Origin: a virus
Virus record (IMG/VR): IMGVR_UViG_3300030099_007267
Coordinates: 1-64,000 of that record
Length of the DNA stretch: 64,000 nt
Direction: 5' to 3' (one strand)
Shown: positions 11,706 to 55,600 of the stretch, in pieces
How positions within the stretch are numbered: position 1 is the stretch's first letter
Layout of the letters: the number at the start of each line of letters is the position of its first letter
Notes under the pieces: model-generated
Database searches by the model: none
What the model was told of the DNA's origin: nothing
What the model saw: the letters and a program-made list of their open reading frames with translations, nothing else
Program-made: the position numbers and the translations under genes

Positions 11706-14591
11706 ATGACACAAAAAACTCACTGGATCCAAGAAGTGAAAAGTCGGTATTCGTTGGAGAGTATCGCTTATCAGCTTGGAATGAAAACAACCGGACGTAA
11801 CGCCTTTGGGCCGTGTCCCTCCTGCAATGCACAGAAGAGAGGAGATCACGACAAAAGAGCACCGTTAGCTTTTTTTGTCCCCTTGGGTAGCAAGGAAGCC
11901 AGATGGCAATGCTTCTCTTGCGGAGACAAAGGAGATATGATCGATCTCGTTTCTTACAAGTTCAATGGAGTAAAGGGTAGCCAAGTTGGCGACTGGACTG
12001 AGATAAAAAACTTCTTCAAAACCCACGAGTTCACCGATATTCGAGTGATCGACAAACCAAAATCCAAGATTCCAAAAAAGGATCTGAAGAGACTTTGGTC
12101 AGAGGGAGTGGTCGGAAACCCTATCGACGGAACCGCTCGTATCGACGTACAACAATTCTTTAAAGATCGAGGACTAAATCATTACTACATTGATGAAGGC
12201 TACATATTTGATATAAACTTTCCCTTTCAAGAACTGGAGAAAGTTATTACATCATCCGGAAAGCCTATGCCCTTTTGGCCTGCTGGATGGGCGTACAGCT
12301 ATCCTATTGCAATTCCTTTGTTCGATGCCAATGGTACCTTCTGTTCTTTTCAGGGTCGCGCCATCCGAAAGCAAGAAGGTAAGCCCAAGACAATGTGCCC
12401 GGCCGGGTTCTCGATGGATGGGTTGTTCTTCGCCAATACAACGATGCGACAATTCCTACTGAAGGAATACAACAGCAATCGCTTTTGGATTGTTGAAGGA
12501 GAGATGGACTTTCTAGCGATCACCTCCAAGCAAGCCAATGAGCCAGTGATGGGCATAAAAAATGGGTCGTTCAGTGCGTTCGATCACATCGCCTTCCCAG
12601 CAGGGGCCGAAGTCATCATTGCTACTCACAACGACACTGCCGGAAACGAATATGCAAAGAAAATTGCTGTTCGGATCGCTCCACACAAACCTAAGCGCAT
12701 CTTGCTTCAGGATGGAGATATCAACGATTTCATTAAGGACGGTAACACCTTTCAAGACTTGGTTGGGAAAATACAAGATTACCCAGACTACGACAGCGTT
12801 TCGGGAGAGATGGCGATAAGAATTATGAAAGATCAATTCTTTCGTATGGAAAATGCCAAACGTGCCGAACGTCAGAACTTGATGGATGATTTGATCGATC
12901 AAACAGAAGCGATCACAGCGGCGTTCAAGACCAACAGAGAAGAAGCTACGAAGATATTTACACGCATCAAAAACCTTCACGGTTGTGGAGCTATTGCCAG
13001 TAAAATGCTACAAGGTATCAACAGCCGCCTTCAATCCTATGAATCAGCCGCAGCGGATACTCTCTTGAATACTCCCACAGAAATAGCCACAGTTCAAGGC
13101 CCAGACCCAAGCGTAGAACTGCTTCGTAAGCCCATTCGAGCCAAAGGTCAGATCGTTGGGTACGGTGCGCCTCTTGCACTAGAAGCCAACATCCAACGCA
13201 TCCTGACAAACGATAGACGTTGGGCTGGACGGCTTCGATACAATAAAATGAAAGGCGAAGTCGAGGTCGACGAAGAGTCCCTGAAGGCAATCCACGTAAC
13301 AGAATTTATGATTTGGTTGCAGGAGAATTACGAAGGACTTCGACTTGACCCCTCTGCGGTTGGACGAGTAATGAACCAAATGGCAGAACGAAACTACGCC
13401 TACCATCCTGTCCAAGAAATCCTCACCGACTGGTGGAAAAACGTTGACCTCAGCGAAGCTCCAGACCACGCTCGACCAGAACATCTATTTACATATTACT
13501 TTCGAGCCGAGAGCAAGGTCGACGAAAAGAAGATTGCAAAAGGTGGTATCAATCAGAAGTTGCTCAATGAAGCCTACGGACGTATCTTCTGTCGTGGCTT
13601 CGTTGCTCGTCAGTTTTTTCCTGACTGCATCAGACGAGGAAAGTTTGACTACACCCCAATCGTCATTTCCCCTGCACAAGGTATCGGAAAAGGTAAGGCG
13701 CTTGAATCACTCGCAATCGAGCCTGAGTTCTTCCACCGTGGTAATCCAAACATAGACAAGAAGGACACCGAGATTATGCTCTCTGGGTGCTCTGTCTTTG
13801 AGTTTGAGGAGTGCGTCACGTTTATCGAGAACCCCTTCACGAAAGTGAAGATGTTCCTGACAAAGTCATCGTTCAAACTTCGAAAACCATACGGAAAAGG
13901 CATGGAAGATATACCAGCCAGCGTTGTTTATGTCGGGTCAACCAACGAAGAAAGCCTTGACTTTCTGGGTGACCCCACAGGTTCTCGACGTTTTATGTCT
14001 ATGATTGTTGGGGTCGGTGGTGATCTACGAGTCGAGGAACTGAGACGCGATCTGAAATATATCTACGCCAGAGCTATGCACTCCTTCTACGGTACAGGTG
14101 AGTACGCAAATACTCAATATCATCCAGAAGACAATCCAGAAGGCGTTGGACTTCCCAAAGGGTTTAACCTTGATTGTCGCAAAACAGGAAACAACAAAGC
14201 TTACCTAGAGATGCTTCCAAACGGCAAACAGTATCTCGAATGGCAAACCAGATCAAACGCTCGCTTTGCTGCAATGGATCCCTGGATACCATACGTTTCA
14301 GATTACTGCGAGGAGGTTTGGAAAGATTACCACCGAGCAAAAAGAGCAATGTTGGCTGACGCTGAAAAATTACTCTTCATCAGCGTTAAGACCCTTCTGG
14401 ACAATGTCCTGAAAATACCAGCAATGAAACAGGACCGGAAAGCATCTAAGAGAGTCGGAGAGGTGTTGATACAGGTAGGACTTAAACCTTCTGGGCAAAA
14501 GTGGCACGGTAAGAAGAAGGTCGCTGTCTGGAAAATACCAATGGGATTATTTAAAGAACCAACCCTTGACGAACTAAGCAAAGGAAGATAA
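11706..14591 (+). CDS. primase-helicase (CHC2 zinc finger, Toprim, VirE-type helicase)
   Basis: 961 residues. A CHC2-like zinc finger uses Cys37, 40, 69 and 72 (CPSC...CFSC). A Toprim domain follows with VEGEMDF (Glu264) and a THNDTAGNEYA segment. Residues about 480-900 resemble the virulence-associated E helicase family: Walker A-like PAQGIGKGK (656-664), acidic FEFEEC, and GSTNEESLDFLGDPTGSRRF. The Walker Lys662 is followed by Gly instead of Ser/Thr, which is atypical. It would synthesise primers and unwind the fork in phage replication. No DNA polymerase is in the window, so it may use the host enzyme or one encoded elsewhere. Own promoter upstream and terminator downstream. Confidence 0.85.
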   Translation: MTQKTHWIQEVKSRYSLESIAYQLGMKTTGRNAFGPCPSCNAQKRGDHDKRAPLAFFVPLGSKEARWQCFSCGDKGDMIDLVSYKFNGVKGSQVGDWTEIKNFFKTHEFTDIRVIDKPKSKIPKKDLKRLWSEGVVGNPIDGTARIDVQQFFKDRGLNHYYIDEGYIFDINFPFQELEKVITSSGKPMPFWPAGWAYSYPIAIPLFDANGTFCSFQGRAIRKQEGKPKTMCPAGFSMDGLFFANTTMRQFLLKEYNSNRFWIVEGEMDFLAITSKQANEPVMGIKNGSFSAFDHIAFPAGAEVIIATHNDTAGNEYAKKIAVRIAPHKPKRILLQDGDINDFIKDGNTFQDLVGKIQDYPDYDSVSGEMAIRIMKDQFFRMENAKRAERQNLMDDLIDQTEAITAAFKTNREEATKIFTRIKNLHGCGAIASKMLQGINSRLQSYESAAADTLLNTPTEIATVQGPDPSVELLRKPIRAKGQIVGYGAPLALEANIQRILTNDRRWAGRLRYNKMKGEVEVDEESLKAIHVTEFMIWLQENYEGLRLDPSAVGRVMNQMAERNYAYHPVQEILTDWWKNVDLSEAPDHARPEHLFTYYFRAESKVDEKKIAKGGINQKLLNEAYGRIFCRGFVARQFFPDCIRRGKFDYTPIVISPAQGIGKGKALESLAIEPEFFHRGNPNIDKKDTEIMLSGCSVFEFEECVTFIENPFTKVKMFLTKSSFKLRKPYGKGMEDIPASVVYVGSTNEESLDFLGDPTGSRRFMSMIVGVGGDLRVEELRRDLKYIYARAMHSFYGTGEYANTQYHPEDNPEGVGLPKGFNLDCRKTGNNKAYLEMLPNGKQYLEWQTRSNARFAAMDPWIPYVSDYCEEVWKDYHRAKRAMLADAEKLLFISVKTLLDNVLKIPAMKQDRKASKRVGEVLIQVGLKPSGQKWHGKKKVAVWKIPMGLFKEPTLDELSKGR

Positions 14592-20606: not shown

Positions 20607-20914
20607 AAATTGTCGGTTTTGCCGGAAACTTTTATGTTTTATCTGGATGGAACATTGACCGGACCGGTACTTTTCAAAAAAAATACTGGATAAATCAAAA
20701 GGGAAAACGCCCGGCAGCAGTCGTCCTGTACTCGGATGGAAGATACAAAGCTCTCCTGTACGACCCAGAAGGAGAATTGATCGATGTTATCGCTGGTCAA
20801 TCCAAACGAGAGTTCTTCAATCGGATACGTGATTCTCTAGCTTTCTATGTGGAAGAGGGAAAAATCCATCCCAACCGAACATCCAAGGAGTTCAAGGATT
20901 GGTTTGGTATTTAG
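20600..20914 (+). CDS. unknown protein
   Basis: 104 residues from ATG 20600, which overlaps the upstream TAA. Beta-rich N-terminal half (MVKIVGFAGNFYVLSGWNID ... RPAAVVLYSDGRYKALLY) and helical C-terminus. No motif recognised. Followed by a short GCGACA/TGTCGC hairpin before a converging gene. Confidence 0.55.
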   Translation: MVKIVGFAGNFYVLSGWNIDRTGTFQKKYWINQKGKRPAAVVLYSDGRYKALLYDPEGELIDVIAGQSKREFFNRIRDSLAFYVEEGKIHPNRTSKEFKDWFGI

Positions 20915-20959
20915 ACTATCGCGACACTGTAACAAGCTGGCTCGTTGTCGCGTGGACTG

Positions 20960-21229
20960 TCATTTGTTGTACTTTCGACGATTGGTCTTTCGAGACACAA
21001 CCCGAGTGTTTTTGCGGCCATTCCCACCGCCTTTGCTCAGTGGTCTTCTGTGATCCACTTCCTGAGTGGTCTTCAGCTTCGGTAACCCTCTCCGCTTTCG
21101 TGCAGCATTTATCCTGGCACGAGCACCATTACGAGCAGTTCTATTTTTAATTTGCTTGGGCTTCCCGTGATACTGCTTGTATTCACGTTTGTAATTTCGT
21201 TTGCCTGTCTTCGGATCTTTGTACGGCAT
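20960..21229 (-). CDS. HNH-like basic protein
   Basis: 89 residues, GGAGGGAG before ATG 21229. KNRTARNGARARINAARKRR is followed by VDHRRPLSKGGGNGRKNTRV and VSRKTNRRK. This matches small phage proteins annotated as HNH endonucleases: D-H before a P-L-S-x-G-G turn, then N-x-R-V-x-S. The metal-binding half-motif is partial, so nuclease activity is not certain. It has its own promoter in the spacer to its right. Confidence 0.6.
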   Translation of the reverse strand: MPYKDPKTGKRNYKREYKQYHGKPKQIKNRTARNGARARINAARKRRGLPKLKTTQEVDHRRPLSKGGGNGRKNTRVVSRKTNRRKYNK

Positions 21230-21293: not shown

Positions 21294-21521
21294 GATAGTC
21301 CTCCTCCTCCTCTGTGCCTGTGCCATACCATACGTATGGTCTATCAATGTGTAAAGATTTTGCCGTTTTATTTGCACGTCGGCACCCATATGTAAAGGAA
21401 ATGACAGTCCTCCTCCTCAGTTGCAGCCCACGTCCGATACGTTCGGTCTATCAGGCCCGAGATCTCAGGTCTCGGTGCCCGACCTCACTATCATCCGTGG
21501 GCTGCTAGGAGGAGGACTATC
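21294..21521 (-). ncRNA. structured intergenic element A
   Basis: Read leftward, GATAGTCCTCCTCCT (21521-21507) can pair with AGGAGGAGGACTGTC (21417-21403; one wobble) or with AGGAGGAGGACTATC (21308-21294; perfect). The inner arm adds GCAGCCCACG/CGTGGGCTGC (21423-21432 with 21496-21505) and a CCGAGA/TCTCGG hairpin. The outer loop contains a 14-bp perfect palindrome ACCATACGTATGGT (21327-21340). TTGACA lies just before the 5' strand, as in D, E and F. The element sits between the promoters of the HNH-like gene and the fused methyltransferase. Whether it is transcribed is unknown. Confidence 0.6.
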
Positions 21522-21619
21522 CTCTGTCAAGGGGGTATTTTAGGGACATTTCCTGATATCCCGAGATACAGGGGGCCATAGGGAAAAATTAAGAATGACC
21601 AAATTGTGTCCGGTATTTA

Positions 21620-21649
21620 TTTGGTCTTATATTGTCCATCTGATAAAAT
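21620..21649 (+). promoter_or_regulatory. promoter of the fused methyltransferase gene
   Basis: TTGGTC, 17-base spacer, TAAAAT preceded by TGA (extended -10). Leader of about 50 bases to the AAGGAGG ribosome site before ATG 21704. Confidence 0.5.
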
Positions 21650-21703
21650 GAGTATGTACCTACGGGTTTCATAAGCCCTAACATCCAAGGAGGATATAAA
21701 ATT

Positions 21704-23602
21704 ATGATTATTCAAAAACAAAAACTCTCTCATGTCGAATTGTTCTCGGGCCTCGGTTCTGCTAGCATAGCTCTTAGAAGCGTTTCACCTCTATTTGAAA
21801 CCGTCGCTTATAGTGAGATTTGCACGAAAGCTGAAGCTGTTCGTGCTGTACTCGTTAAAGATGGCGCTCGCAATATTGGAGATCTGACAGATGACTCCAA
21901 TTGGAGAGATGACAAACGATTGAAAGATATCGACCTTGTAACGGCTGGATTTCCTTGCCAAGACTTTTCAGGAATGAATAGCAAAGCTCTAGGATGGAAT
22001 AGCCCTCGCACTCGCTTTGTAACAAACGCATTACACAGATATGTTTCACACACTCAACCGAAATATATTGTGATGGAGAATGTTAAAAATCTATTTTGTT
22101 CAACCCATATAAAAGGAACAAAGAGCTTCCTTGACTCCTTCAGTGGATACAGTTGGAATCACGTATCCTTCAATCCTGCCGATTATGGATATATTCAGAG
22201 TCGCGGCCGTGTTTACATTCTTCTTTGTCGTAAAGATGTACCACAAGCTGAACTTGATTTAAATGCTATAGTTGGAATCAAACAACAAACCTTTTCCGAT
22301 GTTATGGATAAGCGGACTCTGAAAGACGATGTAAAAGGTGAATATTACCATGTTAAAACACAGTCAAGAATTGAGAGCGCTAAGAAGAGCAATAGATATT
22401 GGCAATTAACGCCCCGATCGACACGCATGCAAACTATGGGAAGACGATCGATCGACGCGCGCTGCAATCGTTTCAGTTGGGTAAAAGGCAATCCAGACCC
22501 TCGTTATTCGCATCGATCCTTATCAGTGAAAGAAGCTCTTCGTATTCAAGGCCATTCAAAAATACCCTCTCGCTTATCTTCTGTAAAAGGGTTGAGCCGA
22601 TCATCATGTTTCATGGCTATTGGTAACGCTTGGCATATTGGCGCGGCTGTTCAAGTATTGAAGCAACTACCAATTCAAGGATTGCTAGAATTCAAATTCA
22701 GACAGTGGGCAAGTAAGTTTATTCGATGGGATAAGGTTGAAGCTCTCGCACGTCGTAAGACAGCACAGAACATCCGTGCTAGATATCTGATTGAAGATCT
22801 TATGACTTCAGGAAGAAGCAGTAACAGACGAGCTTTGTTCGCTACCTCATCGTACAAATTTGATAAGAAGGACGGTAAGAAGATCGAGACTCGAGGTGTT
22901 TACTTGGCCCCTGCTAAGAGAGCTAGCCGTCCTAGTGAAGGTATTATTATCAATAGCTGTCCTAACGCTGGAGAGTGTGCAAAAGAGAAGAACTGTTTAA
23001 TTGGATCGGGAACTATGCCCTTTCATTCTGATACTCGACAAGCTAAGACACTCTTCTTTTATGGTTACCCTGCTGAATACCTCATTCAGATCATCAGAGA
23101 AATTGTTGAGTTTGCACGAAAAGCTCATAAACGTGGCGACGAGCTACAGGTTCGTTTAAATGGAACTTCAGATATCCAATGGGAGCGCTATCTATATATG
23201 GATATGTTAGTGGCTTCTGTAATTGGTTTCATTGGCTTCTATGACTATACGAAGAACGGAGTCAATCGGCTATCTAGAATAGAGCAATCTTATCATCTAA
23301 CATTTTCCGTTAGTGAGGATAAGAATACTATGAAGAACGCACTTGAATATCTTAAAGCGGGATTCTCAGTGTCAATTGTAACCATTCCAAATGAGCATGA
23401 CGATATATTGAATTGGGGCCATCCTCGAGTCTTAGACGGCGAATTGAACGATCACCGACCACAAGATCCCCCCGGATCGGTCGTGTTACTTCCAGCCCGT
23501 GGAGAGTTGAGATCTCAAATTGGTAAAACAAAATTTGTAAAATCCAGATCTTGGGTTGCATGGTTCCTTACTATGGTAGATTCATGTCCAGAGCTAGCTT
23601 AG
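21704..23602 (+). CDS. C5-cytosine methyltransferase fused to a DUF7227-like domain
   Basis: 632 residues. Residues 8-330 are a C5 methyltransferase: motif I HVELFSGLGSASIAL, PCQ with Cys85, ENV in VMENVKNLF, and IGNAW as motif X. Residues about 395-632 match the phage family I know as DUF7227, usually a separate protein: three cysteines 419, 425, 431 (SCPNAGECAKEKNC), RLNGTSDIQWE (484-494), GFYDYTK, YHLTFSVSE and DPPGSVVLLPARGE. The Cys cluster resembles an iron-sulphur or metal site; catalysis is unknown. The fusion suggests that the second domain acts on, or is guided to, methylated cytosine. Family name from memory. Confidence 0.85.
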   Translation: MIIQKQKLSHVELFSGLGSASIALRSVSPLFETVAYSEICTKAEAVRAVLVKDGARNIGDLTDDSNWRDDKRLKDIDLVTAGFPCQDFSGMNSKALGWNSPRTRFVTNALHRYVSHTQPKYIVMENVKNLFCSTHIKGTKSFLDSFSGYSWNHVSFNPADYGYIQSRGRVYILLCRKDVPQAELDLNAIVGIKQQTFSDVMDKRTLKDDVKGEYYHVKTQSRIESAKKSNRYWQLTPRSTRMQTMGRRSIDARCNRFSWVKGNPDPRYSHRSLSVKEALRIQGHSKIPSRLSSVKGLSRSSCFMAIGNAWHIGAAVQVLKQLPIQGLLEFKFRQWASKFIRWDKVEALARRKTAQNIRARYLIEDLMTSGRSSNRRALFATSSYKFDKKDGKKIETRGVYLAPAKRASRPSEGIIINSCPNAGECAKEKNCLIGSGTMPFHSDTRQAKTLFFYGYPAEYLIQIIREIVEFARKAHKRGDELQVRLNGTSDIQWERYLYMDMLVASVIGFIGFYDYTKNGVNRLSRIEQSYHLTFSVSEDKNTMKNALEYLKAGFSVSIVTIPNEHDDILNWGHPRVLDGELNDHRPQDPPGSVVLLPARGELRSQIGKTKFVKSRSWVAWFLTMVDSCPELA

Positions 23603-23685
23603 AGAAGTGGCTTCTGATTATCTTCTTTATCTTATGGTTACTTGGTGCTATAAGTGAAGGATTGAAGCCCGACAAACCCTGTTAA
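23584..23685 (+). CDS. 33-residue single-span membrane peptide
   Basis: Overlaps the end of the fused methyltransferase by 19 bases. MSRASLEKWLLIIFFILWLL continues GAISEGLKPDKPC: one transmembrane helix with a short hydrophilic tail. No good ribosome site, so translation would depend on coupling. Followed directly by a terminator. Confidence 0.45.
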   Translation: MSRASLEKWLLIIFFILWLLGAISEGLKPDKPC

Positions 23686-23704
23686 CGGTCTCGAGCGAGG
23701 CAAG

Positions 23705-23731
23705 GGGGGAGCTAAGCTCCCCCTCTTCTTT
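23705..23731 (+). terminator. rho-independent terminator
   Basis: GGGGGAG (23705-23711), CTAAG loop, CTCCCCC (23717-23723), then TCTTCTTTT. Ends the fused-methyltransferase transcript. Confidence 0.85.
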
Positions 23732-23767
23732 TGCGCCTCTCTTATATGGCATAGAACTCGGGGCCCG

Positions 23768-24056
23768 AGAACCGGACATAAAATGACCTCGCACTATAAA
23801 GCCGAGTGTACCGGCCTTATCGGGGCAGGCCCCGATAGTCCAACCAGACCCAAGGCTGGTTGGGCCAGACACGAGCAACAAAGTGCGAGGTCTATCAGTA
23901 TGATGTATGGTTGGGTACCTACCTACATACTCAAACAATCCGATAGTCCTTCTCCTTTGCTGAGGGCGCAGCCCTCACTTCCTGGAGAAGGACTATCACG
24001 GGCCATGGCCGTAGCTGGTTCTCCGAGAAAGTCAAGACCAAAAACTGTCCGGTTCT
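23768..24056 (+). ncRNA. structured intergenic element B
   Basis: An 11-bp helix AGAACCGGACA/TGTCCGGTTCT (23768-23778 with 24046-24056) closes the whole element. Inside are GACCTCGCACT/AGTGCGAGGTC (23785-23795 with 23882-23892), which encloses two hairpins (TATCGGGGC/GCCCCGATA and CCAACCAG/CTGGTTGG), and GATAGTCCTTCTCC/GGAGAAGGACTATC (23942-23955 with 23984-23997) capped by TGAGGGC/GCCCTCA. ACGGGCC follows the last arm. All these helices are perfect. A promoter lies immediately downstream. The design looks like a folded RNA but could act as DNA. Confidence 0.65.
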
Positions 24057-24060
24057 GTCG

Positions 24061-24089
24061 GTGATATCTAGGTCGTCCTATGGTATAAT
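24061..24089 (+). promoter_or_regulatory. promoter of the 24.1-25.8 kb cluster
   Basis: GTGATA, 17-base spacer, TATAAT preceded by TGG. Spacer and -35 share the pattern TGATATCTA...ATGG with the minus-strand promoter at 28.85 kb. The probable first transcribed base is the A of ATCAACTAAC, 7 bases after the -10. Confidence 0.75.
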
Positions 24090-24095
24090 AGAGAT

Positions 24096-24138
24096 ATCAA
24101 CTAACGGGCCGCCAGCCCTACTACACGGAGGTGTAACT
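24096..24138 (+). promoter_or_regulatory. conserved leader: ATCAACTAAC, hairpin, GGAGGTG
   Basis: ATCAACTAAC, then GGGC/GCCC hairpin, then TACTACACGGAGGTG before the start codon. The same order and nearly the same sequence precede the gene at 28.24-28.50 kb (AGGCT/AGCCT hairpin, ACTTCACGGAGGTG), giving identical 43-base motif-to-start spacing. Confidence 0.65.
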
Positions 24139-24408
24139 ATGGCAATGACTAAAACACAACAAGCTCTAGAGGCTTTATTTTTGAAACTTCAGGATCATGA
24201 CGATGTAATTGATCTGAACAATATCTATATCCACTTTCCAGATCACTTTATCAGTCTGCTCTCCTGTTTGGAAATCGTTTCAAATCGTCTCGCTTGGACA
24301 TACTGCTCACAATATGACGAGAATGGTTATATTGTCGATCTTGAATACAAGAGAGATGAGATTTTGAACATCCTTGTCAGTGATGATTTTACCATTCAGA
24401 GCCACTAA
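24139..24408 (+). CDS. unknown acidic protein
   Basis: 89 residues, ATG after GGAGGTGTAACT. Helical, acidic sequence (KTQQALEALFLKLQDHDDVI ... YKRDEILNILVSDDF). First gene of a six-gene cluster whose members all use GGAGGT-type ribosome sites. The segment from GGAGGTGTAACT through ATGGCAATGAC is repeated before the second gene. No known motif; such small acidic proteins are often host-takeover factors, which here is only a guess. Confidence 0.6.
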   Translation: MAMTKTQQALEALFLKLQDHDDVIDLNNIYIHFPDHFISLLSCLEIVSNRLAWTYCSQYDENGYIVDLEYKRDEILNILVSDDFTIQSH

Positions 24409-24420
24409 GGAGGTGTAACT

Positions 24421-24759
24421 ATGGCAATGACAACAGAACAAATCATGGCAACGATAGAACAAATCAAAGATCAGGTTCTAAAGCTAGGCTCATATGATTT
24501 TGAGCAAAATCTTGTATCTCATGCTGATCAATTATCGGAACTTATTTTTCACTGCGAAGAGCTTCAGAACAGCTTCCACCCTGATGATGACGAGTATGAA
24601 ACACTCGATATTTATATCGGTGATATATTGCAGCCGATTCTGGATAAGCTGGAAAAAGACCAAGAAGAATATCTATCTGATGAGTACATCAAAAAGCAAA
24701 AAGTTGCTCTTGAAGCAGGAAGAATTTGGTTTCAAAAACTTATTGGAGGTGAGCAATGA
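24421..24759 (+). CDS. unknown acidic helical protein
   Basis: 112 residues starting MAMTTEQIMATIEQIKDQVL, with the same ribosome site and first codons as the preceding gene. Strongly acidic helices (YETLDIYIGDILQPILDKLE). C-terminal GGEQ arises because the next gene's GGAGGTGAGCA ribosome site is translated. No family recognised. Confidence 0.55.
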   Translation: MAMTTEQIMATIEQIKDQVLKLGSYDFEQNLVSHADQLSELIFHCEELQNSFHPDDDEYETLDIYIGDILQPILDKLEKDQEEYLSDEYIKKQKVALEAGRIWFQKLIGGEQ

Positions 24760-24938
24760 GAACATATGTATATATCAAAGTAAAACTTTACCTTAAAGAG
24801 GGGCAGACAGAAGACTCAATTCAAGATATCGTTCAAGAGATGGATTATGATTTTGATCACGATGAAATTGTTGATACCGAGATTAAGGATATCATAGATT
24901 ATGATATCCCTGAATCCTCTAACAAAGGAGGTGAGTAA
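24756..24938 (+). CDS. 60-residue acidic protein
   Basis: MRTYVYIKVKLYLKEGQTED resembles an edge-strand beta start; the rest is very acidic (YDFDHDEIVDTEIKDIIDYD). ATGA overlap upstream, TAATG overlap downstream. The charge distribution could mimic DNA, as some anti-restriction proteins do, but nothing else supports that. Confidence 0.5.
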   Translation: MRTYVYIKVKLYLKEGQTEDSIQDIVQEMDYDFDHDEIVDTEIKDIIDYDIPESSNKGGE

Positions 24939-25105
24939 TGACTGTTTGTTTAGTGTGCGGAAGCTCTGATGTACTTATCAAAGCATGGGTCAATCCGAAT
25001 GATGACAAAGCCGAACCCATCCCACTCCCGTGGGACACAGACGCTTGGTGTAACATCTGCGATTGTATCGTCGATCTCAAAGAAGAAGAAGGAGGTAAGC
25101 AATGA
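24938..25105 (+). CDS. 55-residue double-CxxC zinc protein
   Basis: AAAGGAGGTGAG before ATG. Two Cys pairs, CLVC (residues 4-7) and CNIC followed by DC, fit a small zinc ribbon. The rest is acidic. Ends in GGKQ, encoded by the next ribosome site. Probably a small metal-binding protein; function unknown. Confidence 0.55.
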   Translation: MTVCLVCGSSDVLIKAWVNPNDDKAEPIPLPWDTDAWCNICDCIVDLKEEEGGKQ

Positions 25106-25509
25106 GAACCGTTAAAACCTTGCGCAAAGGGAGCTTCGTTCGGAAGTTCCTCGAGGAGTTTGTGAAGAATCATGAGAAGTACAGAGGGGCTTATTTTTGG
25201 CGACCACCGTCTACAGCTTCACAACGCCGTAGAATGGAATTCGATCACTGCACCGTTTTTAAGTATCAAGGCGACGTGTACGAGCTTGAACAGAGCTTGG
25301 AGTGCTCTTGTAAAAATGTTTATTGGACCAGTAGAGTCTTTGTCAATGAGAAGAAGAAGGATATCCGAGTCATCCATAAACTTATTGGTAGCAAAAAACC
25401 ACCGATGTGGTCAGATGAACTTCTACCAACCCTAGACACTCCTGAAGAATTTACCGAGAAGTCTTTAGCGCATTTGGAGAGTTTGATAAACAAAGGAGGT
25501 GAGCAATGA
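25102..25509 (+). CDS. unknown protein
   Basis: 135 residues, ATGA overlap upstream and downstream. Basic N-terminus (MRTVKTLRKGSFVRKFLEEF), three cysteines (HC, ECSC) and a helical C-terminus ending GGEQ. No recognisable domain. Part of the rightward accessory cluster. Confidence 0.5.
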   Translation: MRTVKTLRKGSFVRKFLEEFVKNHEKYRGAYFWRPPSTASQRRRMEFDHCTVFKYQGDVYELEQSLECSCKNVYWTSRVFVNEKKKDIRVIHKLIGSKKPPMWSDELLPTLDTPEEFTEKSLAHLESLINKGGEQ

Positions 25510-25805
25510 GAGTTAGAGTAAAATGGAATTTGACGAATTGTAAATGGTCTGTGTGTGATTGCGAGGGTGTTACCCCTCCGTACCACACTGATTCGATTGT
25601 GCTGTTGAATTGTAAGCTACATCATCCGTTTGGCCATATCGAGGGCGATGTGTCCACAGGTTCAACACGCTACCAATCTGAATGTATAACCCCTATTGGA
25701 TTTGTGAATGATAAAAACGAGATACGCTTTGACGCTGAGTGTGTCTTCCTTACTTCATATGAGGGATCCCCCTCAGCCTATGCGAGTGTAACAGAGGACG
25801 CTTAG
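25506..25805 (+). CDS. unknown protein
   Basis: 99 residues. MRVRVKWNLTNCKWSVCDCE is beta-like with a Cys cluster; middle rich in Gly, His and Thr. Last gene of the cluster, followed 22 bases later by a strong terminator. Not recognised. Confidence 0.5.
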   Translation: MRVRVKWNLTNCKWSVCDCEGVTPPYHTDSIVLLNCKLHHPFGHIEGDVSTGSTRYQSECITPIGFVNDKNEIRFDAECVFLTSYEGSPSAYASVTEDA

Positions 25806-25826
25806 AACGTCCCTCACGCCCCTTGT

Positions 25827-25850
25827 AAGCCCTCTTCGGAGGGCTTTTTT
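25827..25850 (+). terminator. rho-independent terminator with UUCG loop
   Basis: AAGCCCTC (25827-25834), TTCG, GAGGGCTT (25839-25846), then TTTT. The C(UUCG)G tetraloop is exceptionally stable. Confidence 0.92.
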
Positions 25851-25852
25851 GT

Positions 25853-26114
25853 ACCTCGCACTGTACGCTCACGGCAGGTCCCAGGCCGATAGTCCAACCA
25901 GACCTTGGGCTGGTGGACCAGACACGAGCAACGCAGTGCGAGGTCTATCAGTATGATGCCCCTGGCTCATCAAAGCAAACTCAGACAAACGATAGTCCTC
26001 CTCCTAATGCGCCCTGCCGGGGGGCCTGCTTCAACTGGACTGTCACGGGCCGTAGGCCCTGGCCGTCTTCATTAGGAGGAGGACAGAATCTGACCTCAGT
26101 AAGTCAAGGTCAGA
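25853..26114 (+). ncRNA. structured intergenic element C
   Basis: ACCTCGCACTG/CAGTGCGAGGT (25853-25863 with 25934-25944) encloses arms matching those of element B, including CCAG/CTGG and the shared unpaired stretch AGACACGAGCAAC. After TCTATCAGTATGATG (shared with B), GATAGTCC (25991) can pair with GGACTGTC (26037-26044) or, extended as GTCCTCCTCCTAATG, with CATTAGGAGGAGGAC (26070-26084; 15 bp). ACGGGCC follows the middle strand as in B. A TCTGACC/GGTCAGA hairpin (26089-26095 with 26108-26114) ends the element. It lies between converging gene clusters. Confidence 0.65.
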
Positions 26115-26128
26115 ATTTGTCCTATGTG

Positions 26129-26392
26129 TTAGGCTTCTTCGGATTCTTCTTCGTCAGCATAAGCGGACTCGATTCTCTCTGAACACTGAGTACAATAGAG
26201 ATCGGGCGTTTCCCAATTGATAGCTGGGGTAAGCTCCTCGTTACCTAACCATTCGCAATCGTCCTCATGAGCCTCCGACTCTACGTCAGATTCGATGTTC
26301 TCATTAACGCAGTTAGTACAAAACGCCTCACCTTGCCAAACGATGAATTGAGGGTAGCAACCGATAGAACAGTAGCGTTCAAACTTTCTCAT
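26129..26392 (-). CDS. Cys-rich acidic protein, probable zinc binding
   Basis: 87 residues from ATG 26392 (ATGA overlap with upstream gene). Cysteines occur as C-S-I-G-C, C-T-N-C, a single Cys and C-T-Q-C, enough for two zinc sites. The tail is strongly acidic (YADEEESEEA). The stop codon coincides with the end of a repeat shared with the cluster at 27.26 kb. Function unknown. Confidence 0.55.
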   Translation of the reverse strand: MRKFERYCSIGCYPQFIVWQGEAFCTNCVNENIESDVESEAHEDDCEWLGNEELTPAINWETPDLYCTQCSERIESAYADEEESEEA

Positions 26393-26700
26393 GCCGCCCC
26401 CTTGATCATACAGATAGCTTTGCACAAGCTATCTAGATCCGGATCAGCTTCGACCTCTCCAAAGGGGTCGTGGCTAGTCCAAGTCCAAACATGACGACCA
26501 CCGTAGGTGACGTAAAACCCTTCTATATTGTTCCCTTGACTTCCCCATTTTAATCTAAGAATGTCGTCACGATAGAATTCGATATAGAGGACTCGCCCAT
26601 GACATACAGTTTGTTGTTGGACGAATTTGAATCCAGTAGCTTTTGCAGTGCTACTGAACGTATCGATGATACTTTCGTAAATTCCAAATTCGAAGTTCAT
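26389..26700 (-). CDS. unknown protein
   Basis: 103 residues, beta-rich centre (RVLYIEFYRDDILRLKWG ... FYVTYGGRHVWTWTSHDPFG). Coupled to neighbours at ATGA overlaps. No motif recognised. Middle gene of a three-gene leftward cassette. Confidence 0.5.
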   Translation of the reverse strand: MNFEFGIYESIIDTFSSTAKATGFKFVQQQTVCHGRVLYIEFYRDDILRLKWGSQGNNIEGFYVTYGGRHVWTWTSHDPFGEVEADPDLDSLCKAICMIKGAA

Positions 26701-26882
26701 GCTTCCTTCTCCGCTTCTTTGAATACATCAATCTCAGTTAGTTGATCTTTCATGTTCTCGATTTTCACAGCTAAAGCCTTCATTCCGATCTCATTTAAAT
26801 ACTTTGTAGCTTCTTCTAATTGTTCAGAGGCAATAAAAATGCATTCCTCTGTTGCCATCATTGCATGCTTAACATATGCCAT
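26697..26882 (-). CDS. 61-residue helical protein
   Basis: Start ATG 26882 preceded by CGGAGTAAAGACC. The product MAYVKHAMMATEECIFIASE continues as an acidic helix to KEAEKEA. A frame-preserving upstream start at 26978 would add 32 residues encoded by the duplicated leader; its ATG lies exactly 6 bases after the -10 box, so a leaderless longer form is possible. The shorter form has the ribosome site and is preferred. Confidence 0.5.
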   Translation of the reverse strand: MAYVKHAMMATEECIFIASEQLEEATKYLNEIGMKALAVKIENMKDQLTEIDVFKEAEKEA

Positions 26883-26898
26883 GGTCTTTACTCCGTTA

Positions 26899-27036
26899 GT
26901 TAGTTGATTTTGAACAGAGCTTCCCATAGAGGCCCTATGCCCCTCGGTCCGCCCTGCAATGTTCTGTGCTTTACTCATACCTATATTTTATCTGATATCA
27001 GGCACAATTGAAAGTCAGAATATGTCCGGAAAAATA
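26899..27036 (-). repeat. 138-bp duplicated promoter/leader block, copy 1
   Basis: About 96% identical (6 differences) to 27901-28038. Reading leftward it contains TCAGAATATG..., a -10 box TAAAAT (26990-26985), a leader with CATAG/CTATG hairpin, and ATCAACTAAC (26908-26899). It drives the 26.1-26.9 kb gene cluster. Confidence 0.85.
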
Positions 27037-27241
27037 TCTCGCTAGGGCCGGCCCTACCGGAGACATAGAGCGACCATATTCTGTCCTTGACACGAGAAAG
27101 AGCTTGATATCATCGGCCCGAGGCCGATAGTCCTTTCAAAGGTGGGCCGGCAGGCCCGGCCTATTCTGTATTGGACTGTCACGGGCCAGCGTGACCCACC
27201 TTTAAAAGGACAGAATCTGACCCTGAAAAGTCAAGGTCAGA
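27016..27241 (+). ncRNA. structured intergenic element D
   Basis: CAGAATATG/CATATTCTG (27016-27024 with 27075-27083) encloses TCCGG/CCGGA and the 14-bp palindrome TAGGGCCGGCCCTA (27043-27056). Then GATAGTCC (27126) may pair with GGACTGTC (27173-27180), or GTCCTTTCAAAGGTGGG with CCCACCTTTAAAAGGAC (27195-27211; 17 positions, one mismatch). ACGGGCC follows the middle strand; TCTGACC/GGTCAGA (27216-27222 with 27235-27241) ends the element as in C. TTGACA lies between the two halves. Confidence 0.65.
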
Positions 27242-27255
27242 ATTTGTCCTATGTG

Positions 27256-27582
27256 TTAGCTGTAGTACTCTAACATGTGATCGTTACTGCAGACAGGAAC
27301 TGTAGTCCACCCAGCCTCATCGATGTTAAACTCCCAGCCTCCATTTGTCATGGAGGTAACGCGCTCCGCTATGAGTGGCAGCAAGCACCACCAATCAACG
27401 TCTTTGAACTCCTTACGGATAGCTTCTTCATCGAAGCTATCCATTCCCACACGTGATTCAATCAGTAGTTCCATAGCTACCACTCGACAAAGACACCCGC
27501 GCTCCTCGGCCTTCTCCATCACGTACGCATCAAGAGAAGGAAGAATCAAATCCTTATATTCTTGTGATACTTCCCAACTCAT
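27256..27582 (-). CDS. unknown protein
   Basis: 108 residues, acidic and helical (SQEYKDLILPSLDAYVMEKA), ending with a Trp-rich beta region (NGGWEFNIDEAGWTTVPVC). No family recognised. Its stop codon coincides with the end of the repeat also found at the stop of the 26.1 kb gene, which suggests cassette exchange. Confidence 0.5.
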   Translation of the reverse strand: MSWEVSQEYKDLILPSLDAYVMEKAEERGCLCRVVAMELLIESRVGMDSFDEEAIRKEFKDVDWWCLLPLIAERVTSMTNGGWEFNIDEAGWTTVPVCSNDHMLEYYS

Positions 27583-27881
27583 GGCTTCACCAAGCAGCCG
27601 CTATTATTCGCAAGCTCACGACTGGATTGACATGTGTTTTTATAGACCAGTTTAGCTAGCCTCGACGATATCTCATCAAGATTGTTTTTAACTTCCTCGA
27701 TATCTCTTGTAGCATCGTTAACGCATTGACAAAACCCTTCATGAGGGTCGCTTGTTGTGTCAGCCATTGCGATCCATGCGAGGATCCAAGACACGGTTTC
27801 AATCTGGCCAGCTAGGCCTTCTAAGGTTGCAATTGCCGCTTCGACCTTCGCGAGGTCGTCTTTGAAAGTACGTACTTTCAT
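27579..27881 (-). CDS. 100-residue helical protein
   Basis: ATG 27881 with CAGGAGTTACACC upstream. Helical repeats (DDLAKVEAAIATLEGLAGQI ... NNLDEISSRLAKLVYKNTC), three cysteines near the C-terminus. As in the 26.7 kb gene, an in-frame ATG (27980) 6 bases after the -10 box would give a leaderless form carrying leader-encoded residues. Function unknown. Confidence 0.5.
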   Translation of the reverse strand: MKVRTFKDDLAKVEAAIATLEGLAGQIETVSWILAWIAMADTTSDPHEGFCQCVNDATRDIEEVKNNLDEISSRLAKLVYKNTCQSSRELANNSGCLVKP

Positions 27882-27900
27882 GGTGTAACTCCTGTTACTT

Positions 27901-28038
27901 GTTAGTTGATTTTGAACAGAGCTTTCCATAGAGGCCCCATGCCCCTCGGTCCGCCCTGCAATGTGCTTTGCTTTACTCATACCTATATTGTATCCGATAT
28001 CAGGCACAATTGAAAGTCAGAATATGTCCGGAAAAATA
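27901..28038 (-). repeat. 138-bp duplicated promoter/leader block, copy 2
   Basis: Same block as 26899-27036. The -10 box reads TACAAT (27992-27987). The CATGG/CTATG hairpin keeps its pairing through a wobble where copy 1 has CATAG. Ends leftward in ATCAACTAAC (27910-27901). Confidence 0.85.
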
Positions 28039-28100
28039 GCCCTACACCCTCGGCCCTATGGAGAGAATAGAGCGGTCACATTATGTCCTTGACAACAAAA

Positions 28101-28162
28101 GATAGTCCCATTTGGCGGCCGCAGCACACACTGTTGTGCTGTTGGGACCAAATGGGACTATC
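28101..28162 (+). ncRNA. structured intergenic element E
   Basis: Single long hairpin: GATAGTCCCATTTGG (28101-28115) with CCAAATGGGACTATC (28148-28162), perfect over 15 bp, capped by CAGCACA/TGTGCTG. GTCCTTGACA lies 5-6 bases upstream. A reduced form of the same element family, without the second partner strand. Confidence 0.65.
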
Positions 28163-28180
28163 GGAGATGGGCAAAATAAA

Positions 28181-28198
28181 AGCCCTCCGGAGAGGGCT
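28181..28198 (-). terminator. rho-independent terminator
   Basis: On the minus strand AGCCCTC, TCCG, GAGGGCT, then TTTATTTTG. Ends the transcript of the 28.24 kb gene. Confidence 0.85.
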
Positions 28199-28240
28199 AG
28201 GATTACATAGCGAGGACGAGCTTATGGAGTAGACTAGGGA

Positions 28241-28495
28241 TCATGGCGACACCGCCTTATGGGCCCAACGTCGAGCACATCCAACATGATGTGAAGTAGT
28301 CATAGAATAAAAGTTGTCTGGACTAGTGTAATCCAAAACGATTTTTTTTCCTTCTTCGGTGTAGCCAATCAGAAGGTCATAAGACCATAGCTTCTCACCA
28401 TCTGTGTGAAAGGTGATATCACCTCTTTTGTTTTTTCCTGTCTTAGCTTTGATACCGTTGTACCAAGCCAGAGCGACTTGTTTTTTAGTAGCCAT
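28241..28495 (-). CDS. 84-residue unknown protein
   Basis: ATG 28495 after CGGAGGTGAAACA. ITFHTDGEKLWSYDLLIGYT ... YSMTTSHHVGC resembles small plasmid and phage proteins with a conserved YS-x-TTS-x-H stretch; I cannot name them with confidence. Longer frames reading upstream would cross a structured leader and the promoter and are rejected. Confidence 0.6.
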   Translation of the reverse strand: MATKKQVALAWYNGIKAKTGKNKRGDITFHTDGEKLWSYDLLIGYTEEGKKIVLDYTSPDNFYSMTTSHHVGCARRWAHKAVSP

Positions 28496-28836
28496 TGTTT
28501 CACCTCCGTGAAGTAGGCTGGCCAGCCTGTTAGTTGATAAGGTGCCCCTCCTGAGAGGGGCTGTACGTTGCGTAAGGATTATTTTCACTGAGGGAGGAGT
28601 GCGCGTCCCCTTGTGAGAGAGGAGAGAGCGACGTAACCCTGAAAGCGGCCCTGAAAGGGCTTCGAGCTTTCCCGTTACCGAGGGAACGACGGTTCGATCA
28701 AGTCGACGTAAACGAGCGACCGATCTTTGAAAATAATCCTTGATTCTTCCAACGACCGAGAGGGTTGGAAGAGGGTGTTTTTGCTTGGTGGTCCACCAAA
28801 CTAAATCTTGATTGCGATTTAAAAGAGCCAACGTAT
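28496..28836 (-). ncRNA. long structured 5' leader
   Basis: About 340 bases from promoter to start codon. AAGGATTATTTTCA (28741-28728) pairs perfectly with TGAAAATAATCCTT (28587-28574), closing a domain of about 140 bases with inner hairpins such as GCCCT/AGGGC. Upstream lie TCTTCCAAC/GTTGGAAGA (9 bp) and TTGGTGG/CCACCAA; downstream GCCCCTC/GAGGGGC, ATCAACTAAC, AGGCTGGCCAGCCT and the ribosome site. It could be a regulatory leader or an RNA processed from it. No match to a known riboswitch, tmRNA or RNase P was seen. Confidence 0.6.
28529..28538 (-). promoter_or_regulatory. 5'-leader motif ATCAACTAAC, fifth copy
   Basis: Lies 43 bases before the start codon, here far from the promoter, which shows the motif is tied to the translation start region rather than only to the transcription start. 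Confidence 0.6.
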
Positions 28837-28842
28837 GTATAT

Positions 28843-28871
28843 ATAATACCATTGGAGATCATAGATATCAA
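28843..28871 (-). promoter_or_regulatory. promoter of the structured leader
   Basis: TTGATA, 17-base spacer, TATTAT preceded by TGG; the best promoter in the region by match and spacing. Confidence 0.75.
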
Positions 28872-28958
28872 CATAAAAGGCCCTATAAACCGGACACATA
28901 TTGTCCTTGACAAACTGAGAGTAATGTCTTAGGCCTTAGACCCCCAGGACAAACACAC

Positions 28959-29023
28959 GATAGTCTTCCGAGAGGGCGTATGTGGACCAGAGTGTCCGCA
29001 CGCTTCCGGCTCGGAAGACTGTC
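28959..29023 (+). ncRNA. structured intergenic element F
   Basis: GATAGTCTTCCGAG (28959-28972) pairs with CTCGGAAGACTGTC (29010-29023; one wobble), capped by TGTGGAC/GTCCGCA. GTCCTTGACA occurs about 46 bases upstream. Lies between divergent promoters. Confidence 0.6.
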
Positions 29024-29034
29024 ATAGAATGTTG

Positions 29035-29063
29035 TTGCTATGTCAACTCTCGTCTGGTATAAC
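29035..29063 (+). promoter_or_regulatory. promoter of the exonuclease cluster, probably leaderless
   Basis: TTGCTA, 17-base spacer, TATAAC preceded by TGG. The next ATG (29070) begins 6 bases after the -10 box, where transcription should start. Confidence 0.6.
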
Positions 29064-52660: not shown

Positions 52661-55600
52661 ATGGGTACTCCTGAAAACAAGATTATCTTAACTCCAGATG
52701 ATGTTGAAAAGTATACACAATTCGAAGACTTTAGAAAATATCATGGAGAGCTTGGGACAGTTGTAATCGATGCACACAAAGTTCTTATCGAGGAAGGAAA
52801 CACACCAAGTAGCATTACACCAGGGATGCTTCAAACCCAAGTGAACAAATTAGACTCTTCCCAACAGGGTGTACTTCCCGTAGCTGAAGAATTTCTTGAA
52901 AAGTTTGAATCTGTCAACCCAATATCTTCAATGACTCTAGATACAAATGAGTTGGAAAGTGATGTTGACAAACTGTATAAAAATTACATAGAACCTCATC
53001 TTACTCCTGTTAAAACTCATAAAGAGTCAAGGGAGTCTAGGCCGGTTGACCCTAGCGCGGCTGGTTTTGAGCCAAAGAACTTACAACAAGCTCAAAACGA
53101 TTACTTGAAAGCTGTAAATGATCTTATTGAAGATAGAGCAAATGAAAGGATTGCGGAATACAGCAGACAAAAAACCAAAGATAACAAATTAAAATACACA
53201 AAGGATCAGTTAGATACATTAAATAGACAAACTAAAATGATACTTCAGAAGTATTATTTGGCCAATACTTTGTACATTACCAATGAGCCGGATGGGATAC
53301 GGCAAGATATAAAAAAGTTGTTGCCGGATGAGATACCACAAGTCAGCCCAAAAGAAATTGACGATGCTATTGAACAAAAAATTAAAGTAGGAGGTATCGA
53401 TCCAATAAAACTTACACAGCTTCAAAATGATTTAGATTTTATTAAGAAAGCAGATGAAACGGGAATTATTCCTATTCCGACTAGAGAACTCACTTTGTTT
53501 AAGTTCTCGTCAACGGATTTTCCGGCTCAAAGAATAGTTGGAATTAAAGAAGAAGTTGAAAAGGATGAACAAGAACTCGTAAAGAAAAAGCAGCAAGAAG
53601 GCCATACTCCATCTGCTGCCCAAAAATCTGCGAGACTTCAAAAGAAAGAAGAAACAAAAGAGTCGTTATTAGTTGACACTGCTGAAAGTGCCGTAGACTT
53701 TGGAATGAAGATTTTTGGTTTTAAAGAAGCATATGGGGATATTGATAATCAATCTATTTCTCAAGCTGTAAGAAAAATAGGTGATGCGAATATCCAAGCA
53801 AAAGCTTTAAATTCTTTGGAAAACGCACAGAAAGAACATCGGAAAAGTCAAGCTGTCAGAAAAGAAATCTCAGAAGATTTGTCTTCAATTATTTATACAT
53901 TGTCTGAATCCAATAAACATCCAAAAGAAATTGAGCAGGTTGTAAAGGAAATAAGAGAAAGAACTATTTCTGAATCAGACAAGCGATTTATTGAAGCAAT
54001 AAATCGCAGAAACATAAATAATCTTGATGATCTTTTGAGAGAGACACACGCTTTAGTTTCCGCAACAAAGAATTCCAAAAAGCAAGAGTTTTTACTTGAA
54101 ACGACAGTTATGAGTCCAGAGCTATGGGAAAAGGGGATGGCTGATGTTTCTCCAACACAGATAGTTGAGATTGCAAAAAAACAAGGTTTTGATGAAAAGT
54201 ATGGAAATTTTTTAAAGCAAAATTTTGATGTAGCATCAATGCAGAGTTCATTGGATGAAGAGTTTTCTCAAATTGAAGAGGGTTTTTTTATTAGTGATGA
54301 TTCCAGACAACCTATTGCTAAAACCATATTCCGTCTTGGAACTGAATATGAAAAGATGGACAAAACAGAGTCTGTTGCAGATATTCCTTTAACTCCAATT
54401 GATAATCTTAAATTTTACTATGAGCTTCATGAATATGTAAAGCAAGAAATAGATAAAGAATGGGAGCCTGAACTTCGGGAGTTTACAAATCCAACGTCAG
54501 TCGCGTCAACTTACTCTAAATCTTCACTGGCTTTATCTTTGAAAACAACAGAAAATATTCTTTACTCTACTCCCTTTGAGGAAAGGGAGAAACGATCAGA
54601 GTTAAATAGACAAATTAAATCTTTGAGAAAAATGTTAGATGCTCAAACTCAACTCGATGATTACCATCAAGAGAAACCTTGGTTTGGTTTACTTTATCAA
54701 GTTGAACCAGGAGTTCTTTCTTACACTAAAGAAGGTGGCCCCTTCCGTGGGTTTGGTAATATTACGGTTTACGAAGGTGTGCGCGATATTATTGATCAAT
54801 ATCAAGCTAGAGCCTTAGAAGAGATACAACAAGAGCAACAAGCAGGGGAACAGCGACCAGTAGAACAGAAGCCTAGGTATCATCAAAGTATTGACTACGG
54901 AAAGGAATATAAGGCTACTGACGCATTTGTTAAGCAAGTAGCACTTGATACAATGAGGGAAGAATATTTAGACATATATGGAAAGCCCAAAGCCTTTAGC
55001 TCTGGTGATGAAACCAAAGTAATCACAACGTATCTTCAAGAAGGTTTGACTTTTGATGAAATGAAAGACCTTTCTAAGGCGAACGCTCAAAAATCATTGG
55101 AAGCATATCAAATAAACAGAATAATCCAAGATGATATGAGTCATCCATTTGCACGGGCTTTAATTGATATAGATTCTGCAAGTGAACTCCTTGCATCTGA
55201 GACTATATCAGGAATGAAAAAGAAGGAAGTACCTGAATTCTTTAGACAAATGCTTCCTGGTGAAGATGATGATACCATCGAGAACTTAATTATATCTGAT
55301 CAAATAGATGATTTGTTAATGAGAAGACTCAACATTGAAGCTAATTTTGTTGTAGACTCTTTTATTTCTCAACCTCTTACCGAGAACTTTGCATTTTATC
55401 TAGAAAAGCTTACTGCAAAAGCCGTTACAGATTCTTCTTCAATGGAAGCTAAAGTACAGTATACACCGATTACCTTTGCTTTTGAAACACTTACTGCATT
55501 AGCAGAAGAGGCCGTTGTTGTTCTTCCTGTTGAAACCCCAAGTTTTGGCATGTCTATGGCCACGTATTTTGGAGGAGGCCGAGCCGATTTAAACGAATAC

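Follow-up and report, generated by a model that had tools for sequence, protein, structure and literature searches.

Foldable intergenic elements with common ends as possible joints between exchangeable modules in a tailed-phage gene region

Why do the operon boundaries of one compact stretch of a phage genome carry strong hairpins that agree at their ends and differ inside? The question is raised by positions 21294 to 29023 of IMG/VR virus record IMGVR_UViG_3300030099_007267, which we studied within a window, i.e., the whole 64,000-nucleotide (nt) stretch that makes up positions 1–64000 of the 68,623-base record. A sequence-only reading had proposed six structured elements there (A to F), in which a GATAGTC strand pairs with a downstream GACTATC or GACTGTC strand. 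Here, we report that these elements form a real family that keeps its place in related phages while hairpins and neighboring genes are exchanged independently, and we suggest, at slightly less than even odds (about 0.45), that they are the boundary joints of a hypervariable gene-cassette region working in the manner of promoter early stem-loop (PeSL) cassettes.

The common ends far exceed chance. GATAGTCC occurs at 21294, 23834, 23942, 25888, 25991, 27126, and 28101, and GATAGTCT at 28959, with partner strands (GGACTATC or (G)GACTGTC) at 21514, 23990, 26037, 27173, 28155, and 29017. Across the 68.6-kilobase (kb) record, GAYAGTC...GACTRTC pairs no more than 160 nt apart number eight against 0.09 expected (maximum of one in 300 dinucleotide shuffles of the record), and all eight fall inside 21.3–29.1 kb. 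A stricter search for 9-base-pair (bp) ends found four in the record, with a background of ~2 per Mb in ~1.0 Mb of Sak4-bearing phage loci, mostly distant. Folding against shuffles reached z-scores of −8.1 (values for each element are given below), which bears out the proposed family and its core. The copies have their ends in common, not one interior, and past the common 8 nt the stem extensions are more complementary within than between elements (permutation p = 3e-4, 11 elements), as expected from the earlier claim that stems differ yet stay complementary from copy to copy. This is covariation in the sense of that claim, though the elements are too different to align as one structure. Rfam searches at the gathering threshold and at lax E-values returned nothing relevant to the elements, in line with the view that no described family has this core. 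The remark that almost every operon boundary in these 8 kb carries an element stands for 21–29 kb, where all six boundaries have one or two, and does not extend to the rest of the record, where operon boundaries lack them. We also asked whether G-U pairs in the ends reveal a strand asymmetry but gave this up, as a T-G mismatch is A-C on the opposite strand and orientation is arbitrary.

Three layouts were distinguished among the elements, namely a nested hairpin, an inner-partner or pseudoknot-like arrangement, and the type of B1 and C1. In A, B2, E, and F, the common ends continue into one nested hairpin. Element A (21403..21521, minus strand, reading GATAGTCCTCCTCCT...AGGAGGAGGACTGTC on that strand; z −7.4) sits between the divergent HNH and methyltransferase-GP88 genes; it had been placed at 21.3–21.5 kb, and the stretch at 21294..21346 (plus strand) turned out to be only a half element, A′, with GATAGTCCTCCTCCT and GGTCTATC and a poor fold of its own (z −1.6). 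The elements from B1 to F are all given on the plus strand. B2 (23942..23997; z −5.9) is a GATAGTCCTTCTCC/GGAGAAGGACTATC hairpin followed by CACGGGCC, E (28101..28162; z −8.1) has a perfect 15-bp outer stem of GATAGTCCCATTTGG/CCAAATGGGACTATC, and F (28959..29023; z −6.9), built of GATAGTCTTCCGAG/CTCGGAAGACTGTC, lies immediately 5′ of the predicted DnaQ promoter. The six proposed positions are thus real, except that B and C hold two elements each. B1 (23786..23897; z −6.5), with ACCTCGCACT/AGTGCGAGGT around GATAGTCC...GGTCTATC, and C1 (25853..25949; z −4.3) are homologous to each other. In C2, D, and the relative L018, the (G)GACTRTC partner is enclosed in the loop of another, longer stem, whose strands are TCCTCCTAATG/CATTAGGAGGA in C2 and TTTCAAAGGTGGG/CCCACCTTTAAAA in D. 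C2 (25991..26087; z −4.1) runs GATAGTCC, TCCTCCTAATG, GGACTGTC (26037), CATTAGGAGGA, and D (27111..27214; z −5.7) consists of a P0 hairpin, P1 (AGTCC/GGACT), an 11-bp P2, and a P4 hairpin. The partner strand named earlier in C and D, GGACTGTC, is therefore not that of the main stem, which uses the distal CATTAGGAGGA and CCCACCTTTAAAA. The two pairings of C2, D, and L018 thus either compete or form a pseudoknot, and the strand order of C2 (P1a-P2a-P1b-P2b) is possibly that of a pseudoknot. A candidate left border element, Z (20914..20961, minus strand, GACAGTCC...GCGATAGTC, 7-bp stem), folds weakly (z −0.4), but the homologous position is where the contig of the relative G002 ends.

Relatives of the region were collected by scans with DnaQ, the capsid protein, Sak4, and a flanking 111-amino-acid protein, and element copies were found in L014, L016–L019, L021, and L022. 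Those upstream of the DnaQ-like gene end in GATAGTCC or GATAGCCC, and this position is kept down to ~43% DnaQ identity. At the site of F, L016 (cut at its 5′ end), L017, and L019 have an element with GATAGTCC/GGACTATC ends; L018 has a GATAGTC...GACTATC element of the pseudoknot layout; and L021 and L022 have TGATAGCCCC/GGGGCTATCA hairpins of ~130 nt (z −10 to −13), L021 carrying two hairpins with one gene unit and its own promoter between them. The copies anticipated outside the window thus exist, yet a wide distribution is not supported: searches with DNA patterns, scans of 2.9 million viral contigs guided by proteins, and blastn against named phages and plasmids located them in one phage lineage only. 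The blastn search with the region and three of its boundaries matched no named phage or plasmid, and the sole genuine match of pattern scans of the viral contigs (operator plus GATAGTC, D core, and promoter module) was L019, as the matches L025 and L029–L035 had no element or operator on inspection. Other inverted repeats also came to light. L033 (3328–3472 and 7470–7581) and L035 (2705–2849 and 6847–6958), which are unrelated phage loci, hold repeated 13–19 bp inverted repeats CCTTTTCTAACATTGTTAG, and L049, a relative with 54% Sak4 identity, has an intergenic cluster of CCAGAT/ATCTGG palindromes (12461–12767), so that this gene boundary carries hairpins of another design.

Hairpins and genes have separate histories in these relatives. 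Apart from L016 and L019, the interiors of the relatives' elements are mutually unrelated. The hairpins of those two agree at 98% over 50 nt, whereas the adjoining DnaQ genes are 58–63% identical over most of their length. Conversely, the L016 DnaQ is ~75% identical to that of the window, whose hairpin F is unrelated to the L016 hairpin. L019 runs from a D ortholog through an unrelated gene, a promoter/operator module 71–73% identical to those of the window's D and E units, and an unrelated hairpin to DnaQ, and its blocks of homology to the window end within ~20 nt of element edges. L021 and L022 are organized likewise, their promoter blocks being paralogous and accompanied by hairpins. Contigs also end at element borders (L014, L016, L018, L019, and G002), and because both ends of G002 fall on such borders, this contig amounts to the core genome, severed from the variable region at each of its two borders. 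As a separate observation, contig ends of G002, G004, L014, L016, L018, L019, and L021 begin near GATAG or at ATCA; the ATCA starts look cut inside CTATCA, with G004 and L021 starting with ATCAC.

The elements fall outside the predicted operon transcripts. Predicted canonical terminators stand separately at 23704, 25827, and 28198 (at B, C, and E), and as the elements come after these and before promoters, they lie in the space between transcription units; no predicted promoter consistently reads into them. Transcription of the elements, which the small-RNA sequencing suggested earlier presupposes, is not indicated. The predicted DnaQ-like promoter (29035..29063, plus strand, TTGCTA-17-TATAAC, aligned with L016–L019) begins 12 nt past F, and the DnaQ ATG (29070) follows the −10 box by 7 nt, which puts F outside the predicted DnaQ mRNA, itself probably leaderless. 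Two minus-strand promoter/operator/5′ modules, 26880..27093 for operon 26129–26882 and 27879..28094 for operon 27256–27881, align with L019 and are paralogs (86% over 218 nt). Such modules adjoin D, E, and F, hairpin and promoter again having separate histories. Seven 15-bp palindromes GGWCANNNNNTGWCC, often adjoining GTCAAG, occur in the window against 0.21 expected and are probable operators of a phage regulator. Operator-like pairs GGACAGAATCTGACC ... GGTCAGAATTTGTCC stand beside C2 (26081..26122, sites 26081 and 26108) and, with the same make-up, beside D (27208..27249, sites 27208 and 27235), and single operator-like sites stand beside E (28074..28088), F (28892..28906), and B1 (23774..23788). 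A −10 box made by GATAGT itself was rejected, TTGAxx spacing suiting just two copies. Within the conserved 5′ modules (window 26883–26990 and 27882–27992; L019 764–876), an ATG lies 6–7 nt after the −10 box, in frame with a downstream start preceded by a Shine-Dalgarno sequence, and may begin a leaderless leader peptide or an N-terminal extension.

The structure of element D was examined more closely. Its ortholog (L019:1–104) is 86% identical, and with P0, P1, P2, P3, and P4 taken as one tiled structure, both sequences can form 32 of 32 pairs. Four of these pairs (two each in P0 and P2) show double compensatory changes and one goes from G-C to G-U, while slid controls retain 30–44% of pairs. 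Unaided, RNAalifold recovered P0, P1, P4, and a P3 hairpin from the two sequences; P2, which it did not return, tiles exactly between the other helices as a pseudoknot. Element D thus keeps an RNA-like structure. The shuffle control for this covariation came to 28 of 500, a figure that two sequences can hardly improve, and because P1 is invariant and only these two sequences are at hand, the pseudoknot is plausible and not proven. Built from D and its ortholog, a covariance model found nothing else convincing in 0.54 Mb of sequence or, with filters off, in the region: opposite-strand hits to D and its ortholog aside, the best other hits had E-values of 4.3 and 0.27. A single RNA family with a single structure, as the sequence-only reading had it, is therefore unsupported.

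We take these observations to favor boundary or recombination joints over a family of small RNAs. Each transcription unit of 21–29 kb is a module of one to six small genes with a promoter and palindromic operator sites; modules meet at foldable elements with common GATAGTCC/GGACTRTC ends; and elements and modules have been swapped independently between related phages. The exchange could most simply proceed by homologous recombination at the short repeated ends, carried out by the PD-(D/E)XK nuclease and the Sak4 annealing protein of the phage, and hairpins placed between a terminator and a promoter, or between divergent promoters, would probably insulate neighboring units from read-through.

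Several points weigh against such joints. The stems are so divergent that copies have ~8 to 15 nt in common, which is short for homologous recombination, and the compensatory changes in D suggest selection on the hairpin itself, for which there would be no call if it served just as a patch of homology. The T-tract typical of terminators is absent after most elements, T-rich stretches following the L016 element and element E (minus strand). That six of the 11 contig ends in the region lie at element borders, where 6% of positions qualify (p ~2e-5), speaks for joints, but the count was made post hoc from a list drawn up by hand, the pattern having already been seen; contig ends at hairpins could also come from sequencing drop-out at strong structure or from assembly. 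Homology alone leaves a kept hairpin with a drifting sequence unexplained, which gives room for a role as RNA or for enzymatic recognition of the hairpin base. A cassette system of the latter kind, encoded by the phage and independent of an integrase, in which some enzyme recognizes the GATAGTCC/GGACTRTC base and swaps hairpins or whole modules precisely there, appears unlikely to us.

The role as RNA would be that of a structured non-coding family, some members pseudoknotted, whose transcripts arise at the boundaries and work either in trans or as switches in cis. This we hold possible, at a good deal less than even odds: the pairing kept by D and its ortholog, the helices that RNAalifold recovers, and the D-like strand order of C2 and L018 with an unrelated P2 all speak for it, but the covariation comes from two sequences only with the shuffle control above, promoters do not consistently lead into the elements, Rfam offers no match, and the interiors of the remaining copies are unrelated. 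If the fold were instead made in single-stranded DNA, as in attC sites, a recombinase would read the conserved hairpin ends, leave the interior free, and move the cassettes. This would suit the conserved ends, the imperfect stems that vary in sequence, the presence of a single element for each cassette, the independent exchange, and the contig ends at element borders, and yet no tyrosine integrase (PF00589), serine resolvase, or Y1 transposase was found in G000, G002, or G004, the ends differ from attC R boxes, and the units have their own promoters and both orientations, so that we consider it unlikely as well.

Less probable still are miniature inverted-repeat mobile elements inserting intergenically with GATAGTCC ends. 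Short terminal inverted repeats, several copies, and replacement at one locus are what these would leave, but no target duplications were seen on reading, no copies lie off the boundaries, the position is constant across phages as distant as the ~43% DnaQ level, no Y1 transposase was found in G000, G002, or G004, and interiors are unrelated rather than copied. The elements might also be only bidirectional terminators or RNase III sites with no part in module exchange, to which the strong hairpins at each boundary and the T-rich stretches just mentioned would correspond; given that B, C, and E already come with separate canonical terminators, that most elements have no T-tract, that A and F lie between divergent promoters with nothing to end, and that constant ends on varying interiors would go unexplained, we regard this as very improbable.

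The record that carries the region encodes a tailed phage, with a terminase (35052) whose closest counterpart in a named phage, the TerL of Roseobacter phage CRP-7, shows 25.6% identity, a putative portal (36626) assigned from size and position only, a capsid protein (40982, phrog_9953), a primase-helicase (11706), the PD-(D/E)XK nuclease (31248), and Sak4 (32462), in a gene order that differs from that of T4. Among the three DNA methyltransferases encoded in the window, the one at 21704–23602 is a fusion of a C5 cytosine methyltransferase (PF00145) and a phage "Gene product 88" domain (PF17338), of which no relative was found in the viral contigs; a search of GTDB genomes gave no relatives of Sak4 or of the flanking 111-amino-acid protein. 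One open frame of 5,092 codons spans 52661–67939 of the record (window 52661–64000 plus L001 to 13939), and none of its thirds had a convincing Pfam or PHROG match. N4-type hairpin promoters, an idea prompted by this frame, were set aside, since a regular expression found no RNA polymerase motif in it and the protein searches gave nothing convincing.

How do these elements compare with known systems? Swapping of small accessory genes between otherwise stable phage genomes is known mainly from T4-like phages, and mobile regulatory PeSL cassettes of those phages were reportedly described by Arbiol in 2010 and Comeau in 2014. Both studies are cited in PMC4503421, and a PeSL-like motif has been proposed for the haloarchaeal virus HGTV-1 (PMC3950731). 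The present elements resemble these as repeated intergenic units with an inverted repeat, some of them next to promoter modules, which lie where a tailed virus shuffles its genes and at which modules are exchanged. They differ in that hairpin and promoter are separate, the hairpin being the upstream one, that the common part is 8-nt ends on stems with unrelated interiors, that operator palindromes accompany the elements and some copies are possibly pseudoknotted, and that the carrier, by its TerL (25.6%) and gene order, is not T4-like. In integrons, too, every cassette has its attC site, an imperfect hairpin of variable sequence between conserved ends, but the attC R boxes read RYYYAAC/GTTRRRY rather than GATAGTCC/GGACTRTC, no IntI-type integrase was found in G000, G002, or G004, and the cassettes here have their own promoters. 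REP/BIME, NEMIS/Correia, and further palindromic repeats known from bacteria are also many-copy intergenic palindromes, whereas these elements have symmetric GATAGTCC/GGACTATC ends, interiors that are not copies, and a range of one region in one phage lineage. The strand order of D (P1a-P2a-P3-P1b-P4-P2b) is that of hepatitis delta virus (HDV)-like ribozymes, a nested double pseudoknot, but D has no J4/2 strand with the catalytic C and matches no HDV-like Rfam model. Set beside the T4-like cassettes, then, an unrelated lineage offers a compact region whose joints are visible through constant ends, variable hairpins, and separate histories of hairpins and genes, and these joints would give precise positions for testing exchange, insulation, or RNA processing.

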